DNA of 64,000 nt, taken from an uncultured Desulfobacteraceae bacterium (GTDB lineage: Bacteria > Desulfobacterota > Desulfobacteria > Desulfobacterales > UBA5852). The stretch is from assembly GCA_913060875.1 (NCBI GenBank), contig CAJXSL010000003.1, positions 335,045 through 399,044 of the forward strand, in the 5' to 3' direction. Positions 24,485-31,147 of this stretch are shown piece after piece. Made by a program: the position numbers and the translations under genes. Numbering within the stretch: the first letter of the stretch is position 1; each line of letters opens with the position of its first letter. The notes under the pieces are model-generated. The model ran no database searches, had not been told where the DNA came from, and worked only from the letters and a program-made list of their open reading frames with translations.

Positions 24485-24521
24485 CATTATATACATTATA
24501 TTTACATTTACATTGACATTG
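24485..24521. repeat. Five ACATT direct repeats upstream of lexA
   Basis: ACATT occurs at 24485, 24494, 24505, 24511 and 24517, the last three exactly 6 bases apart, in an AT-rich island within GC-rich DNA. The repeats overlap the presumed -35 of the lexA promoter and could be binding sites for LexA itself or another regulator. This is inference. Confidence 0.5.
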
Positions 24522-24543
24522 AGGGCGCGGCCCCCTATTGTTT
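24514..24543 (+). promoter_or_regulatory. Candidate promoter of the lexA mutagenesis operon
   Basis: TTGACA (24514-24519) and TATTGT (24538-24543) are 18 bases apart. Transcription would start about 25 bases before the lexA ATG at 24576. Confidence 0.45.
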
Positions 24544-24575: not shown

Positions 24576-25208
24576 ATGCGACCGGACTATACCGTAAAAC
24601 AGCAGCAACTGCTTGATTACCTGGACCAGCAAATCAAACAGCACGGCCGTGCCCCGAGTCTGCGGGAGGCCGCCGCGGATCTCGGCGTCAGTCACGCGGC
24701 CGTAGCCCAGACCCTGAAAGCGTTGGAACAGAAAGGCGCCGTGCGACGCGAGGGCCGTTACAGCCGGAATCTGCTGTTGCTGAACCGGGCGCGGGGAATC
24801 GCCGGCAGCCAGCGTTGGCGGGAGGTGCCCCTGATCGGACGGATTACAGCCGGTCGGCCCATGTATGCCCAGGAGGAATGGGACGGCAGCGTGGTGATCG
24901 ATGCGGCCCTGTTCCCAGGGCACGACCTGTTTGCCCTGCGGGTGAAAGGGGACTCGATGCGGAACGCCGGTATTCTGGATGGGGATCTGGTCATTTGCGA
25001 ACCCCGGCAGTATGCCCGCAACGGTGAAATTGTGGTGGCCCTGATCGATCGGGAGGAAGCCACGGTCAAACGGTTTTTCCTCCACGGGGACCATGTTGAA
25101 CTGCGGCCGGAGAACAGCGCTTATCCGGTGCTGCGGTACACGTTTAATGAGGTGCTGGTACAGGGCAAGGTGATCGGGCTGCAGCGGGGGCCCGCATCGA
25201 TTCGTTGA
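24576..25208 (+). CDS. lexA: LexA-family SOS repressor
   Basis: A 210-aa self-cleaving repressor. Residues 1-70 are a winged helix (LREAAADLGVSHAAVAQTLKALEQKG). The linker carries the Ala-Gly cleavage pair in GRITAGRP. The peptidase dyad is Ser near residue 126 (GDSMRNAGILDGD) and Lys near 163 (ATVKRFF). ATG 24576 follows GGGGGAGG. The recognition helix differs from that of E. coli LexA, so its operator probably also differs. It heads a cassette with DUF72, ImuB and DnaE2 genes, and probably represses that cassette until DNA damage. Confidence 0.92.
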   Translation: MRPDYTVKQQQLLDYLDQQIKQHGRAPSLREAAADLGVSHAAVAQTLKALEQKGAVRREGRYSRNLLLLNRARGIAGSQRWREVPLIGRITAGRPMYAQEEWDGSVVIDAALFPGHDLFALRVKGDSMRNAGILDGDLVICEPRQYARNGEIVVALIDREEATVKRFFLHGDHVELRPENSAYPVLRYTFNEVLVQGKVIGLQRGPASIR

Positions 25209-25225
25209 AGAGGAACAGGAAGACC

Positions 25226-26080
25226 ATGCAGCCACGGGAATCCGCCGCCGGCCCTGTGCGGGTGGGCACCAGCGGTTATTCCTATCCGGAATGGGCGGAT
25301 GCCGGATTTTATCCGCGCGGCACCCGGCCGGGGGGAATGCTGACGTTGTATGCCCAGCGGTTTGCCGCCGCCGAGTTGAACTACACCTGGTACCAGATGC
25401 CGAGGGCTCCGGCCATCGATCGCATGCGGCGTCAGGTGCCGGCGGATTTTCGGTTTGCGGTGAAACTGACGCGAACCATGACCCACGAGGTGGATCGCGG
25501 CCAGTGGCGCGGGCAGGTGGCCCTTTACCGGGATGGATTGGCGCCCCTGGTTCTGGCCGGGCAGCTGGCGGCGGTTTTGCTGCAACTGCCGGCCTCGTTC
25601 GAGCGGACGCACCCGCGCCGCCACTACCTGGCCGCCCTGCTGGACGAACTTGCCGGACTGCCCCTGGCGGTGGAGTTCCGGCATCGTTCGTGGGCCGCGG
25701 ACCGGGTGTTCGCGGAGTTGGAAAAACGCCGGGTGACCCTCGTGGCCGTGGATGCCCCGCCGCTCCCTCATCTTTTCCCTTCGTTGGATGTGGTCACCAA
25801 CCCGGAGCTGTTTTACGTGCGGTTTCACGGCCGCAACGCGGCGGGCTGGCGTTCGGGCAACATGCAGAAACAGTTCGACTACTGTTACGGCCTGTCGGAG
25901 CTGAAAGACTGGGCGGAAACGCGTTTCGTCGCCATGACCGGACACGCCCGCCGCGGGCTGGTATTTTTCAACAACCACGTACGGGCCCAGGCACCGGCCA
26001 ACGCCCGACAGCTGACGGCTTTGCTGGCCGAACAGGGCCTGACGGGGGATCCTGCGTGGGTCGACACATCATCCATATAA
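25226..26080 (+). CDS. DUF72/YecE-family protein in the mutagenesis cassette
   Basis: A 284-aa TIM-barrel protein of the DUF72 (YecE) family: VGTSGYSYPEW, FAAAELNYTWY, FRFAVKLTRTMTHE, LPLAVEFRHRSW, YVRFHGRN and FFNNHVRAQAPANA are the usual blocks. ATG 25226 follows AGGAAGACC. It begins 17 bases after lexA and its end overlaps imuB by 25 bases, so it is tightly coupled. The biochemical role of DUF72 is not established. It occupies the place where imuA would stand in a classical lexA-imuA-imuB-dnaE2 cassette, but shows no RecA-like motif and is not an ImuA. Confidence 0.88.
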   Translation: MQPRESAAGPVRVGTSGYSYPEWADAGFYPRGTRPGGMLTLYAQRFAAAELNYTWYQMPRAPAIDRMRRQVPADFRFAVKLTRTMTHEVDRGQWRGQVALYRDGLAPLVLAGQLAAVLLQLPASFERTHPRRHYLAALLDELAGLPLAVEFRHRSWAADRVFAELEKRRVTLVAVDAPPLPHLFPSLDVVTNPELFYVRFHGRNAAGWRSGNMQKQFDYCYGLSELKDWAETRFVAMTGHARRGLVFFNNHVRAQAPANARQLTALLAEQGLTGDPAWVDTSSI

Positions 26081-27231
26081 ATGTGGCCGATTTTGCCGTG
26101 GCGGTGGAACGTGCTCTGGACCGACGCCTGCGGGAACGCCCGGTTATCGTTGCGCCCGAAGGTGTCGCCCGGGCGGTGGTGTATGACATGAGCGAGGAAG
26201 CCTACCAAGCCGGCGTTCGCAAGGGCATGGCCCTGCGCCAAGCGGAACGGTTGTGCGCGGACGCCCATGTTTTGCCGCCCCACCCGGCCCGCTACGAACA
26301 GGTCATGCAGGCGCTTGTCCGCCGGGCACAGCCCTATTCGCCGCTGATCGAACCGGGCGAGGCGGACGGTCACCTGTTTATGGACGTTACCGGAACCAGC
26401 CGCCTTTTCGGGCCGCCGGTGGATGTGGCCTGGCGTCTGCGCCGTCAGGCCCGGACGGATTTGGGCCTGGAGCCCGTATGGGCTGTCGCGCCCAACAAGC
26501 TTGTGGCCAAGGTTGCCACCCGGCTGGTGAAGCCGGATGGAGAATGCATTGTCGACGCCGGTCAGGAGGCGCGGTTGCTGGCCCCGGTGCCCCTTTTGCT
26601 GGTGCCGGGCATCGAGCGCCAGGATCTGGTGCGGCTGGGGGATTTCAATTTCCGCCAGGCCGGCCAGGTGGCCGCTCTGGAGCTGGAGGCGTTGCAGGTG
26701 CCCTTCGGCCGGCGGGCCTTTGGTCTGTACGAGGCGGTTCGGGGCATTGACCGGTCGCCGGTCCGGCCCGCGGGTCAAAAACCGCCCCGCGTGGTGCGGG
26801 ATCATGTCTTTGACGAAGATGCCCACGGGGTTCCCGTGATCGAGGGCGCTCTTTATGCCCTGGTGGAAAGCGCCGGGCATACCCTGCGGCGCCGATGCCT
26901 TGCAGCCCGGCGGGTGGCTGTCGGGCTGGATTTTTCCGACGGCCGGCGCTGCATCCGTCAGCGTGCGGTGCAGCCGGCCACCGCGAACGACATGAGCCTG
27001 TTCGCAACCGCCCGCGCCGTGCTCTATCTGGCCTGGCGCCGCCGGGTACGGATCCGCCACCTGCGATTGATCTGCGACCGGCTGACTTTTCCGCCGGCCC
27101 AACGGGAATTGTTTCCGACCGATACCGCCGTGGATGGCCGACAAGCGCAGCTGGTGGCCGCACTGGACAGCATCCGCCAGCGATTCGGGAGGGATGCGGT
27201 AAGTGTCGGCCGCACCCTGGCGGCTTCGTAA
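26056..27231 (+). CDS. imuB: ImuB-like Y-family polymerase homolog, catalytically inactive
   Basis: A 391-aa member of the DinB/UmuC fold. The first active-site motif reads IIHINVADFAVAVE where active enzymes have HIDMD, so both acidic residues are lost. The SIDE motif region reads EADGHLFMDVTGT, without the Asp-Glu pair. Finger, palm and little-finger blocks are otherwise present (ERPVIVAPEGV, YSPLIEPGEADG, PNKLVAKVATR, LLLVPGI). A clamp-binding-like motif QRELF lies near residue 352. Start is GTG 26056 behind GGGGGAT, overlapping the DUF72 gene. ImuB proteins act as inactive scaffolds linking the clamp and DnaE2. The last residues and stop come from a palindromic repeat. Confidence 0.85.
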   Translation: MGRHIIHINVADFAVAVERALDRRLRERPVIVAPEGVARAVVYDMSEEAYQAGVRKGMALRQAERLCADAHVLPPHPARYEQVMQALVRRAQPYSPLIEPGEADGHLFMDVTGTSRLFGPPVDVAWRLRRQARTDLGLEPVWAVAPNKLVAKVATRLVKPDGECIVDAGQEARLLAPVPLLLVPGIERQDLVRLGDFNFRQAGQVAALELEALQVPFGRRAFGLYEAVRGIDRSPVRPAGQKPPRVVRDHVFDEDAHGVPVIEGALYALVESAGHTLRRRCLAARRVAVGLDFSDGRRCIRQRAVQPATANDMSLFATARAVLYLAWRRRVRIRHLRLICDRLTFPPAQRELFPTDTAVDGRQAQLVAALDSIRQRFGRDAVSVGRTLAAS

Positions 27232-27341
27232 AATGGCCAATCTCGGCGTTGCACGGCGCTCTTCGTCGCTGCGGCGTACGGATGTACGCCTCACTCCTCA
27301 GAGCTTGTGCGCCTTGATCTTGACCATTTTACGAAGCCGCC
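27219..27341. repeat. Palindromic intergenic repeat, copy B
   Basis: Perfect 18-bp inverted ends: GGCGGCTTCGTAAAATGG (27219-27236) and its reverse complement (27324-27341). Inside are CGGCGTTG, a central dyad GCGTAC-GGAT-GTACGC (27274-27289) and CGCCTTGATC. The same plan is found in copy A at 19329-19438. The left arm contains the end and stop codon of imuB; the right arm ends 36 bases before dnaE2. The RNA would fold into a long hairpin between the two cassette genes. Confidence 0.75.
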
Positions 27342-27377
27342 GAAGTTTTTGCCGAAAGGCGAGAAAGGCGTGTTTCC

Positions 27378-30300
27378 ATGGTGCCGTTGACCGTACGATC
27401 CCATTATTCCCTGATGTGGGGCACCGCTTCGGTGGGCCGGCTCGTGCGGGCGGCGCGGCGCATGGGCTATACACGTCTGGCGCTCACGGATACCGACAAT
27501 CTGTACGGATTGTGGCCTTTTCTGGCGGCCTGTCGGCGGGAAGGCCTTCAACCCATCGTGGGGGCGGAGGTGACGGATCCCGGCCGCCGGGGTCGGGCGG
27601 TTTGCCTGGTGGCCAACGCGGTCGGCTACAGCAACCTCTGTCGTCTCCTGACGGCCCGGCACATGGATCGCGGATTTTCGCTGGCGGCCGCTCTGCCGGA
27701 TCGGGCCGAGGGCCTGGTGGTGCTGACCCGGGATCCCGGCCTTTTGGCGGCCTGGCATGATGCCGGGGTCCGGGTGGCGGCGGCCATGCCGCGGCAACCG
27801 CTGGCGACATCCCATCCCTTGCGGCGGCTGGCCCGGCGCCGGGGAGTGCCGGTGGTGGCGACACCGGGGAGTTTTTTCCTGGAGCCGGACACGCATTCCG
27901 TCCATCGGCTTCTGCGGGCCATTGACCGGAGAACATCCCTAAGCCGCCTTCCGGCCGATCAGGTTGCGCCGGCCGACGCCTGGCTGGCGCCACCCGAGCG
28001 CTACCGGCAGCGGTTTGCCACCTGTCCCGAAGCCCTTGCGGTGACGGCAACCCTGGCCGAGGAACTGTCTTTTACCGGTCCGGAGTTCGGCCTGGTCATG
28101 CCGCCCTGGCCGTCCAAGGGTGATCGCCGCATCGATCCGGACGCCGCCTTGCGCCGGGCCGCCTATCGGGGGGCCCGGCGCCGCTACGGCGAGGAATTGT
28201 CCGAGCCGGTGGTGGAGCGGCTGGAGCATGAACTGCAGGTGATCGCCCGGATGGGGTTTTCCGCCTATTTTCTCGTGGTGCGCGACATCGTGCGGCCCAG
28301 TTCGCGAACCTGCGGCCGGGGCTCGGGGGCGGCTTCGCTGGTGGCTTACTGCCTGGACATCACCAACGTGTGTCCTATCAAGCACAACCTTTATTTCGAG
28401 CGCTTCCTGAATCCCGGCCGCAGCGATCCTCCCGATATTGATGTGGACTTCGCCTGGGACGAGCGTGATGCGGTCCAGGCGTCCGTGCTGGCCACCTACG
28501 GGCGTCACGCCGCCATGGTGTGCAATCATATCCGCTTTCAGCCCCGCATGGCCGTGCGGGAAACGGCCCGGGTGTATGGTTTGACTGAGGGGGAGATCGG
28601 TCGGGTGACCCGCCGCCTGCCCTGGTACTGGCGGGTGGATGGTCCTTCAGAAGCGCTGCTGACCGCGGTTCGGCGCCGGCCGGAGGCCAGGGCGCTGGGG
28701 TTTCCGGAACCCTGGCCGGAAATTCTGTCCTATGCCGAGCGTCTTGTGGGCATTCCCCGGTATCTGTCGGTGCACGCCGGCGGAGTGGTGATTACCCCGG
28801 AGCGGGTCGACCGTTACGTTCCGGTGCAGCGGGCGGCCAAAGGGGTGCCGATCATCCAGTGGGAAAAGGATGCCACCGAAGACGCCGGTCTGGTCAAAAT
28901 CGATTTGCTGGGCAACCGTAGCCTGGGGGTGATCCGGGATGCGTTGGCCCATGTCCGGGCCGGTGGGAGCCATTTCGACGAGCGGCAATGGGAACCGGAA
29001 GATGATTTTGCCACCCAGGAAGCCGTGGCCCTGGGCAAGACCATGGGCTGTTTTTATATTGAAAGCCCGGCCATGCGGCTTCTGCAAAAAAAAGCGGGGG
29101 TGGGCGATTTCGATCATCTCGTCATTCACAGCAGCATCATTCGCCCGGCAGCCAATGAATTCATTCAGGAGTATATCCGACGCCTTCACGGCGGGGCCTG
29201 GGATCCCATCCATCCCCTGCTGACCGATGTGTTGGCCGAAACCTTCGGCATCATGGTGTATCAGGAGGACGTATCCCGGGCCGCGGTCGCCCTGGCGGGT
29301 TTTTCCCATGCCGAGGCGGATCGCCTGCGCAAGGTGATGTCCAAAAAGGATCGCGCTTACCATCTAAAGGATTTCCGGTCGCGGTTTTTTGCCGGTGCCC
29401 GGGCCCGGGGCATCGTCGCTTCCACGACCCAGGCAATATGGGACATGATGATGAGTTTCAGCGGCTATTCGTTCTGCAAACCCCACAGTGCATCCTATGC
29501 CCGGGTATCGTTTCAAGCCGCCTATCTCAAGGTGCACCACCCTGCCGAGTTCATGGCGGCGGTCATCAGCAATCAGGGGGGCTATTATGCCACCTTTGCC
29601 TATGTGTCCGAGGCGCGGCGGATGGGACTGAACATTCTGCCGCCGGACGTGACCGCGAGTGATCGGCAATGGATCGGCCGGGGGCAGACCGTGCGGGTGG
29701 GCCTGCAGGCCGTTGGCGGGCTGGGGATTGCCACGGCAGACCGCATCGTTGCCGCCCGCCGAAGCCGACCGTTTCGCGATATCATGGATTTTCTGATGCG
29801 TGTCCGCCCGGACGAAGCCGAGGCCCGGGCCCTGATACGCTGCGGGGCGCTGGATGCCCTGGCGTCGGACGGCGGCCGTGCGGGATTGATGTGGACACTG
29901 GCCGAATGGCAGGGCCGTTGTGCGCGGGAGCCGCGGCGGGACGCCCTGTTTGATTTCCCGGCACGGAATGTTCTACCCGACTTGCCGGATGAAGATCCCT
30001 TGGCGCGCCTCCGGCGGGAATTTGCCGTTCTGGGCTTTTTGTGCGACCGACACCCCATAACCCTTTACAGCGACATGCTGGCAGCCCGGCAAACCGTCAA
30101 AGCCATCGATATGGGCGGCTGGCAAGGGAGCCGGGTCCATTTTGGCGGCTGGTTTGTTGCCGGCAAGGTGGTGCACACCAAGCAGGGTGATCCCATGGAG
30201 TTTCTGACGTTCGAGGATGAAACCGATATCATTGAAACCACGTTTTTCCCGGCGGTCTACCGCCGGTTCTGCCACATGCTGGATTGGGGCCGACCCTATC

Positions 30301-30545
30301 TGCTGACCGGTCGGGTGGAGACGGATTGGGGCGCGTTGACCCTCACCGTGGATCAAGTGGCACCGCTGCCGCCGGTGCGGTCGGTCAGGGATCAACCGTT
30401 GGAGGCCTTGCCCTGGCGCACGGAACGATCTAATCTGGTTCATCTGACGGACGGTGCGGCCATTGTGGACACGGAGTTGCCCGCGGCGTCTGCCCTTGAC
30501 GTTGAAAAGGAGATGCTCACATGCGTGAACAATTGCGGCCAATGA
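27378..30545 (+). CDS. dnaE2: Error-prone DNA polymerase III alpha subunit (DnaE2 type)
   Basis: A 1055-aa C-family polymerase, the usual DnaE2 length and shorter than replicative DnaE. Order: N-terminal PHP domain (VRSHYSLMWG, LALTDTDNLYG), palm with GRGSGAASLVAYCL and catalytic acidic motif PDIDVDF near residue 352, fingers with SVHAGGVVITP, VYQEDV, SYSFCKPHSASYA, a helix-hairpin-helix part (AVGGLGIATADRIVAARR) and a C-terminal OB domain (VHTKQGDPMEFLTFEDET). ATG 27378 has only a weak ribosome site. Works with ImuB in damage-induced translesion synthesis in other bacteria; that role is inferred here from the cassette. Confidence 0.9.
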   Translation: MVPLTVRSHYSLMWGTASVGRLVRAARRMGYTRLALTDTDNLYGLWPFLAACRREGLQPIVGAEVTDPGRRGRAVCLVANAVGYSNLCRLLTARHMDRGFSLAAALPDRAEGLVVLTRDPGLLAAWHDAGVRVAAAMPRQPLATSHPLRRLARRRGVPVVATPGSFFLEPDTHSVHRLLRAIDRRTSLSRLPADQVAPADAWLAPPERYRQRFATCPEALAVTATLAEELSFTGPEFGLVMPPWPSKGDRRIDPDAALRRAAYRGARRRYGEELSEPVVERLEHELQVIARMGFSAYFLVVRDIVRPSSRTCGRGSGAASLVAYCLDITNVCPIKHNLYFERFLNPGRSDPPDIDVDFAWDERDAVQASVLATYGRHAAMVCNHIRFQPRMAVRETARVYGLTEGEIGRVTRRLPWYWRVDGPSEALLTAVRRRPEARALGFPEPWPEILSYAERLVGIPRYLSVHAGGVVITPERVDRYVPVQRAAKGVPIIQWEKDATEDAGLVKIDLLGNRSLGVIRDALAHVRAGGSHFDERQWEPEDDFATQEAVALGKTMGCFYIESPAMRLLQKKAGVGDFDHLVIHSSIIRPAANEFIQEYIRRLHGGAWDPIHPLLTDVLAETFGIMVYQEDVSRAAVALAGFSHAEADRLRKVMSKKDRAYHLKDFRSRFFAGARARGIVASTTQAIWDMMMSFSGYSFCKPHSASYARVSFQAAYLKVHHPAEFMAAVISNQGGYYATFAYVSEARRMGLNILPPDVTASDRQWIGRGQTVRVGLQAVGGLGIATADRIVAARRSRPFRDIMDFLMRVRPDEAEARALIRCGALDALASDGGRAGLMWTLAEWQGRCAREPRRDALFDFPARNVLPDLPDEDPLARLRREFAVLGFLCDRHPITLYSDMLAARQTVKAIDMGGWQGSRVHFGGWFVAGKVVHTKQGDPMEFLTFEDETDIIETTFFPAVYRRFCHMLDWGRPYLLTGRVETDWGALTLTVDQVAPLPPVRSVRDQPLEALPWRTERSNLVHLTDGAAIVDTELPAASALDVEKEMLTCVNNCGQ

Positions 30546-31147
30546 GGTTGGCGTTAGGGGTGGCCCTGGCGCTGTTGTTGGGTGCCTGCGCCACTCCCAT
30601 CACCCATCCGGTGCAGATGGCGTATCGTGGCGCTGTTCAGCCGGAAACGGATCAAGTGACGTCCGTCGGCATCCAGCCGTTTTATGACCGGCGCAACGAA
30701 GCCGATCGCCATGTGATCGGTTATCGTCAATTGGGGCACGGTGAGCGAGAGCGGTATGTGTCGAGTCCGGACGACGTTGCCCGTGCGGTGACCCGCATGG
30801 CCACAGAACTCGTCCGGCAGAAGGGCGGTGAACCCGGTGATTTAAAGGGATGGGATTTTTCGCCGGACCGGATGCTGACCCTTTCCGATGCCTTCGATGT
30901 CTTTATCGGGGGCGAGATCGAGCGGCTGCGTTGCGATGCCGAAAAACGCCTCATGCATACCCGCATGGTCCTGGAACTGGACATCGTGGTCTATGTGGGC
31001 AAGGTTCGGGAAGGGATTGTGCACCGTCGTCCTGTCAGCATGCGCACCGAACGGGTTGCGGCCACCTTCGGTCCCCGCGAGCTGCAGCAGTTTTTGAATG
31101 ACATGCTGTCCCGGGGGCTCGAAAGGGGCTGCAAAGGCGTTCCCTGA
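30521..31147 (+). CDS. Lipoprotein, unknown function (YajG-like layout)
   Basis: A 208-aa lipoprotein with lipobox LLGAC near residue 22. The mature part is an alpha/beta domain: VTSVGIQPFYDRRNEAD, VIGYRQLG, VARAVTRMATELVRQKG, FDVFIGGEIERL and RMVLELDIVVYV. This recalls YajG/DUF-type lipoproteins that pair 'D.R' and 'G.i..l' segments. ATG 30521 has AGGAG 9 nt upstream and overlaps the end of dnaE2 by 25 bases, so it could be translated with the cassette, though a link to mutagenesis is unlikely. Confidence 0.75.
   Translation: MREQLRPMRLALGVALALLLGACATPITHPVQMAYRGAVQPETDQVTSVGIQPFYDRRNEADRHVIGYRQLGHGERERYVSSPDDVARAVTRMATELVRQKGGEPGDLKGWDFSPDRMLTLSDAFDVFIGGEIERLRCDAEKRLMHTRMVLELDIVVYVGKVREGIVHRRPVSMRTERVAATFGPRELQQFLNDMLSRGLERGCKGVP

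Follow-up and report, generated by a model that had tools for sequence, protein, structure and literature searches.

We analysed a 64,000-nucleotide stretch of DNA (the window) from an uncultured Desulfobacteraceae bacterium (assembly GCA_913060875.1, contig CAJXSL010000003.1, positions 335,045 to 399,044), in which lexA, a DUF72 gene, an imuB-like gene and a second dnaE form one tight operon on the + strand (24576-30545). Comparison across genomes shows a conserved four-gene operon with a predicted operator over its -35 box, and points to a single gain of DUF72 that was kept in most descendants. The membership of DUF72 in this cassette is well supported by the comparison; what the protein would do biochemically is our proposal. 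For its function, a co-induced role in lesion recognition or nicking fits best, with the chemistry predicted. We consider the chances about even that the cassette is an SOS mutagenesis module in which DUF72 serves as a co-induced, lesion-recognising accessory and not as a substitute for ImuA. To our knowledge, the DUF72 family has solved structures and no agreed function.

The original prediction, made from the same DNA, had described four genes running tightly in one direction, lexA-DUF72-imuB-dnaE2, with DUF72 in the place of imuA. The coordinates of the four genes were right, and domain matches were obtained for all of them. lexA (24576-25208, + strand) scored 173.6 bits against TIGR00498 (cut-off 110.95) and is the sole LexA match in the genome; the cleavage Ala-Gly and the catalytic Ser and Lys can be read in its protein. 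The DUF72/YecE gene (25226-26080, + strand; PF01904, E 2e-56) encodes an XI-like TIM barrel, the model of which matched 1vpq at Z 31, and it was the only DUF72 match in a search of the genome. Its start is likelier to be the ATG at 25226, which has an AGGA Shine-Dalgarno in front and lies 17 bases past lexA, than the TTG at 25205, which merely gives the longest open reading frame. The imuB-like gene (26056-27231, + strand; PF00817 and PF11799) encodes an inactive Y-family polymerase, as judged from an AlphaFold model and its matches to Y-family structures in the PDB, and overlaps DUF72 by exactly the predicted 25 bases (26056-26080). The second dnaE (27378-30545, + strand) was identified by domain matches as a dnaE2-like C-family polymerase; the replicative DnaE1, the other of the two DnaE in the genome, sits on another contig. 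The four genes do share a strand, but the run is not seamless, with a palindrome of about 115 bp lying between imuB and dnaE.

In order to determine how widely this arrangement is conserved, the 80 nearest relatives of the DUF72 protein were drawn from 84,980 species genomes. All 80 lay in this gene order or in a remnant. The four genes were complete and in order in 55 cases, and DUF72 adjoined lexA or imuB in 78; the remaining two (L130 and L189) stand alone. The DUF72 cassette, found in sulfate-reducing bacteria, is carried by more than 30 families, with named organisms such as Desulfatitalea alkaliphila, Desulfosarcina widdelii and Desulfosarcina alkanivorans, and the mobilizable plasmid Do28_1 of Desulfosarcina ovata subsp. 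sediminis contains all four cassette genes. An adjacency confined to this one genome, a possibility that the original prediction had raised against itself, was therefore not found. Of 116 genomes examined in the order, 38 held both the cassette-type DUF72 and the cassette-type ImuB, 1 DUF72 alone and 6 ImuB alone (Fisher p 4e-23, uncorrected for phylogeny). Several loci depart from the common order. In L124 and L192 (G043), lexA-DUF72-imuB is followed by no dnaE for several kb downstream. DUF72 is broken beside an intact lexA in L112 (G083), where imuB is gone, and both DUF72 and imuB are broken in L111 (G080), which hints at joint decay of the two genes, assembly error being the other possibility. 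L109 (G092) holds an intact cassette-type DUF72 with a lexA remnant only and no cassette imuB in the genome; here DUF72 has outlived its cassette. The cassette gave no match to PADLOC, and an anti-phage defence reading was dropped. In the open-licence literature we found no paper linking DUF72 with ImuB or COG1801 with DNA damage.

The predicted LexA operator is a direct hexamer repeat, TTTACATTTACATTGACATT (24501-24520, + strand). This direct-repeat operator, TTTACATTGACATTTACATT, overlies the -35 box upstream of lexA (TTGACA, 24513-24518), and a weak -10 (TATTGT, 24536-24541) follows 17 bases on. Its 12-mer core was present in 54 of 87 distinct lexA upstream regions, compared with 0.015 expected from shuffles, and in none on the other strand. 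A copy without mismatch occurs once in this genome, at the cassette, and in three named relatives with genomes of 5.1-7.3 Mb the operator was likewise found once per genome and always at the cassette. Where lexA is missing, the operator precedes DUF72-imuB (L129, L168); it precedes imuB-dnaE in G038, each half of the split cassette in G073 (L076, L077), and imuB again in L193, where two genes have been inserted. Since the operator is found ahead of whichever gene comes first in the unit, it behaves as the site of a trans-acting repressor, which we infer to be the cassette's own LexA. A single operator per genome was recorded for the window (24501-24520) and for L129, L183 and L184, including a genome where LexA is the sole copy; LexA may therefore control a single operon. 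No such operator was found in the recA upstream region. A palindromic LexA box was rejected, since the upstream regions have no dyad in common and what they do share is a direct repeat. The exact operator 20-mer also occurs in viral contigs; none of these carried cassette genes, and several of the sites lay in repetitive sequence. Direct-repeat LexA boxes are known in Alphaproteobacteria (PMC8565304), but their sequence and spacing differ from those of the cassette operator.

The protein encoded by the imuB-like gene has the fold of a Y-family polymerase (Foldseek E 1e-30 to DinB, AlphaFold model) and has lost the catalytic carboxylates. Relative to the DinB motifs HVDMDCF and SIDEAYLDVT, cassette ImuB proteins read H(I/L)N(V/I)ADF and DGHLFMDVT; the protein in the window has HINVADF and EADGHLFMDVT. 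Its C-terminal part contains a clamp motif, typically QLELF and here QRELF, followed by a helix of the IDxIRxRFG type, and both elements are conserved among cassette ImuB proteins. The helix matches the RecA-NT motif of PMC6511836 and draws a weak DUF4113 match. The protein, of 391 aa, ends after this helix and has no ImuB-C domain. In the second DnaE the PHP metal site is degenerate and the C-terminal tau-binding domain is absent, both of which are DnaE2 traits (PMC3919608). In these respects the cassette resembles the classical imuA-imuB-dnaE2 operon, which is LexA-linked and combines an inactive Y-family protein bearing clamp and RecA-NT motifs with a second DnaE of the same kind; unlike it, the cassette lacks imuA and ImuB-C, contains DUF72, and has a DnaE from a separate clade. 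The likeness to the classical ImuB of a Burkholderia plasmid is 27% over just 78 residues. In a DnaE tree with few outgroups, in which the DnaE1 of this genome falls on the cassette side, cassette DnaE forms its own clade (100/100) and a 100/99 branch splits it from three classical DnaE2 proteins. Judged from sequence, the polymerase parts are not descended from classical ImuB and DnaE2. Because of the weak likeness of ImuB and the separate DnaE clade, the names imuB and dnaE2 used in the original prediction hold as descriptions of working likeness, not of membership.

The absence of imuA was confirmed. None is present in the operon, a search of the genome with NF033429 matched only RecA and RadA, and a profile of three annotated plasmid ImuAs gave no match in this genome at E ≤ 0.001. 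Neither search found ImuA in cassette-bearing genomes of the order, so that no imuA elsewhere in the genome came to light, here or in those relatives. The plasmid-ImuA profile weighs more in this result, NF033429 being a weak ImuA detector that reached its cut-off in no control genome. Across the order, the profile matched almost entirely RecA-length frames; one match of 230 aa came from G040, a genome without the cassette. With a Y-family member bearing a RecA-NT-like motif, an adjoining second DnaE and no ImuA, the cassette resembles the ImuA-less PolY-DnaE2 variants (Streptomyces coelicolor DinB2, Kyrpidia and Geobacter types), in which the Y-family member with its RecA-NT motif is inactive or active, lexA and dnaE2 often accompany it, and RecA has been proposed as the substitute (PMC6511836). 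It differs from them in belonging to Desulfobacterota and in having ImuB-C neither fused nor adjoining in the operon, and the main text of that study mentions no DUF72. RecA, held through the RecA-like helix of ImuB, is a likelier stand-in for ImuA than DUF72.

The history of the cassette also speaks against DUF72 having entered in the place of imuA. The ImuB tree groups every DUF72 cassette in a single clade of 92 rows (support 100), and cassette DUF72 proteins form one clade against 20 other DUF72 proteins of Desulfobacterota (support 100). More distant cassettes of the same phylum, with 32-39% identity, have the three-gene order lexA-imuB-dnaE without DUF72 and mostly with no gene in the slot. 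The ImuB tree alone cannot separate gain from loss, but outgroup gene order does. Because the outgroup cassettes lack DUF72 and the DUF72 cassettes form a single ImuB clade, DUF72 was most likely gained once, by a cassette already without imuA, and then lost several times without replacement. These losses would have occurred at L090, L091/L092 and L099 and in the whole of family f88, and the invariant residues of ImuB are unchanged after them. Other seeming losses proved to be contig breaks or relocations (L076/L077, L078/L079, L087/L088). Family f88 is represented by L210-L213, where imuB and dnaE of this clade are paired, with no DUF72, no adjoining lexA and no operator. Of the original claim that DUF72 is a working part of induced mutagenesis in the place of imuA, what stands is that DUF72 belongs stably to the cassette and is regulated along with it. 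Substitution for ImuA was rejected on the three-gene outgroup cassettes and the ImuB tree, and would be hardly credible: DUF72 does occupy the classical imuA slot upstream of imuB, with an overlap as in imuA-imuB, but the ancestral-type cassette has neither gene, ImuA resembles RecA whereas DUF72 has a TIM-barrel fold, and the partner predicted from the RecA-NT-like helix of ImuB is RecA (PMC6511836).

We also compared the DUF72 protein with its family and with proteins of known structure. Its model (predicted local distance difference test, pLDDT, 86.6) gave Z 30-31 against solved DUF72 structures. Its closest matches beyond the family were MbnB (Z 15) and a UV damage endonuclease in complex with 6-4 photoproduct DNA (4gle, Z 14.7). 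The cassette DUF72 keeps all residues conserved across the family, including E57, H94, E157, D183, H208 and N257. Alignment to 1vpq, the structure of TM1631, placed an invariant Trp-Tyr pair, W62-Y63 (codons 25388-25393, + strand, numbered from 25205), at Tyr47-Tyr48 of that protein, and R159 and R206 at its phosphate-binding arginines. W62 is present in 99 of 99 cassette DUF72 proteins, compared with Tyr or Phe in 20 other DUF72 proteins; Y63 is invariant in both sets. TM1631 has been predicted to be an endonuclease-IV-like enzyme, with Tyr47-Tyr48 as the proposed wedge at lesions where two nucleotides are unpaired (PMC3828134). The cassette protein shares its family, its fold (Z 31) and, by alignment, its phosphate-site residues, but has Trp-Tyr in place of Tyr-Tyr in the proposed probing loop and belongs to a separate clade. 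With the UV damage endonucleases (4gle, 2j6v) it shares the XI-like TIM barrel, at about 8% identity in the alignment.

From these observations a sequence of events can be proposed. RecA filaments would trigger self-cleavage of LexA, and all four proteins would be induced together. The inactive Y-family protein would act as the platform, binding the beta clamp by its clamp motif and RecA by its C-terminal RecA-like helix, which would make ImuA unnecessary. This platform would load the second DnaE, presumed to be proofreading-deficient, for error-prone synthesis. DUF72 would be an accessory lesion-recognising enzyme of the UV-endonuclease/endonuclease IV fold class, binding or nicking damaged DNA in the same response through its phosphate-binding site and Trp-Tyr wedge.

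Several observations weigh against this proposal. We know of no demonstrated endonuclease activity of a DUF72 protein. Sugar epimerases also match the DUF72 model (Z 13-14), and with MbnB, UV damage endonuclease and epimerases all matching, the fold alone is indecisive. Solved DUF72 structures show no metal (PMC3828134), a further difference from UV damage endonuclease. Binding of the hexamer repeat by LexA is itself a prediction, and no operator was found at the stand-alone DUF72 genes L088, L109 and L130. About four lineages keep a cassette with the DUF72 slot empty, and their ImuB retains 93-100% of the residues invariant elsewhere. The persistence of these cassettes means that DUF72 is dispensable; it looks like a favoured yet dispensable accessory.

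Some of these points would suit a passenger, that is, a TIM-barrel enzyme unrelated to damage that was locked into the operon by chance. DUF72 proteins are present from Escherichia coli to archaea and widely outside such cassettes, the fold is common to sugar epimerases, and the stand-alone copies have no operator. We nevertheless consider a passenger unlikely, since DUF72 has been kept by imuB in more than 30 families and on a plasmid with the cassette, its site residues are intact, it has its own operator where lexA was lost, and DUF72 is independently enriched beside PolB2 (PMC11791011). A closer involvement, with DUF72 as a core subunit of the mutasome, in physical contact with ImuB or DnaE and indispensable for error-prone synthesis, would agree with its position directly before imuB (median gap of 14 bases over 90 distinct loci, the exact 25-base overlap recurring in 12) and with the pairing of the two genes where dnaE or lexA does not adjoin (L124, L129, L168, L192). 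The persistence of DUF72-free cassettes makes such a subunit improbable; no DUF72-ImuB fusion was seen, and the invariant ImuB residues are not relaxed in the DUF72-free cassettes. A search for DUF72-ImuB contact sites among residues relaxed after DUF72 loss found none, giving no sign of a contact surface. We give little credence to the idea that DUF72 instead runs error-free repair, incising lesions ahead of excision, in competition with the mutagenic branch. The fold class of UV damage endonuclease and endonuclease IV and the incision proposed for TM1631 (PMC3828134) are in its favour, but the tight link to error-prone polymerase genes could just as well reflect a step that DUF72 and the polymerases share.

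In a 2025 study, enrichment near PolB2 mutasomes was reported for the genes of DUF72 and SRAP (PMC11791011), which is an independent association of DUF72 with translesion synthesis. Like the cassette, those operons in bacteria combine mutasome genes with lexA, have DUF72 enriched nearby and include an inactive RecA-family partner; unlike it, they encode a B-family polymerase, iRadA and PPB2, and DUF72 is enriched 'to some degree' and is no fixed member. The link is thus less new than the original prediction supposed, ImuA-less variants (PMC6511836) and DUF72 beside PolB2 having already been reported. A lesion-recognising mutasome factor recruited independently into PolB2 and Y-family/DnaE mutasomes is a tentative extension that we think has rather less than an even chance of being right.

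Two further features adjoin the cassette. The palindromic element between imuB and dnaE (27223-27337, about 115 bp, assigned to neither strand) has exact inverted arms and a DNA fold z of -6.7, and the stop codon of imuB lies within its left arm. L126 has a similar element between DUF72 and imuB, so this could be a mobile repeat inserting at operon junctions. A small lipoprotein-like gene (30521-31147) overlaps the end of dnaE. It gave no match in Pfam and NCBIfam searches and its relatives were seen in the nearest genomes only, so that it probably lies outside the cassette.

The cassette shows that a mutasome free of ImuA can also be reached by another route, and its LexA appears to act on one operon only, by way of a direct-repeat operator of an unusual kind. 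Since the sole DUF72 gene of this genome is linked with a dedicated LexA, an inactive Y-family protein as platform and a second DnaE, its function can be tested directly, in cultured species of Desulfosarcina and Desulfatitalea. If DUF72 is indeed an independently recruited mutasome factor, this would be the first role for a very widespread family, in damage-induced mutagenesis.

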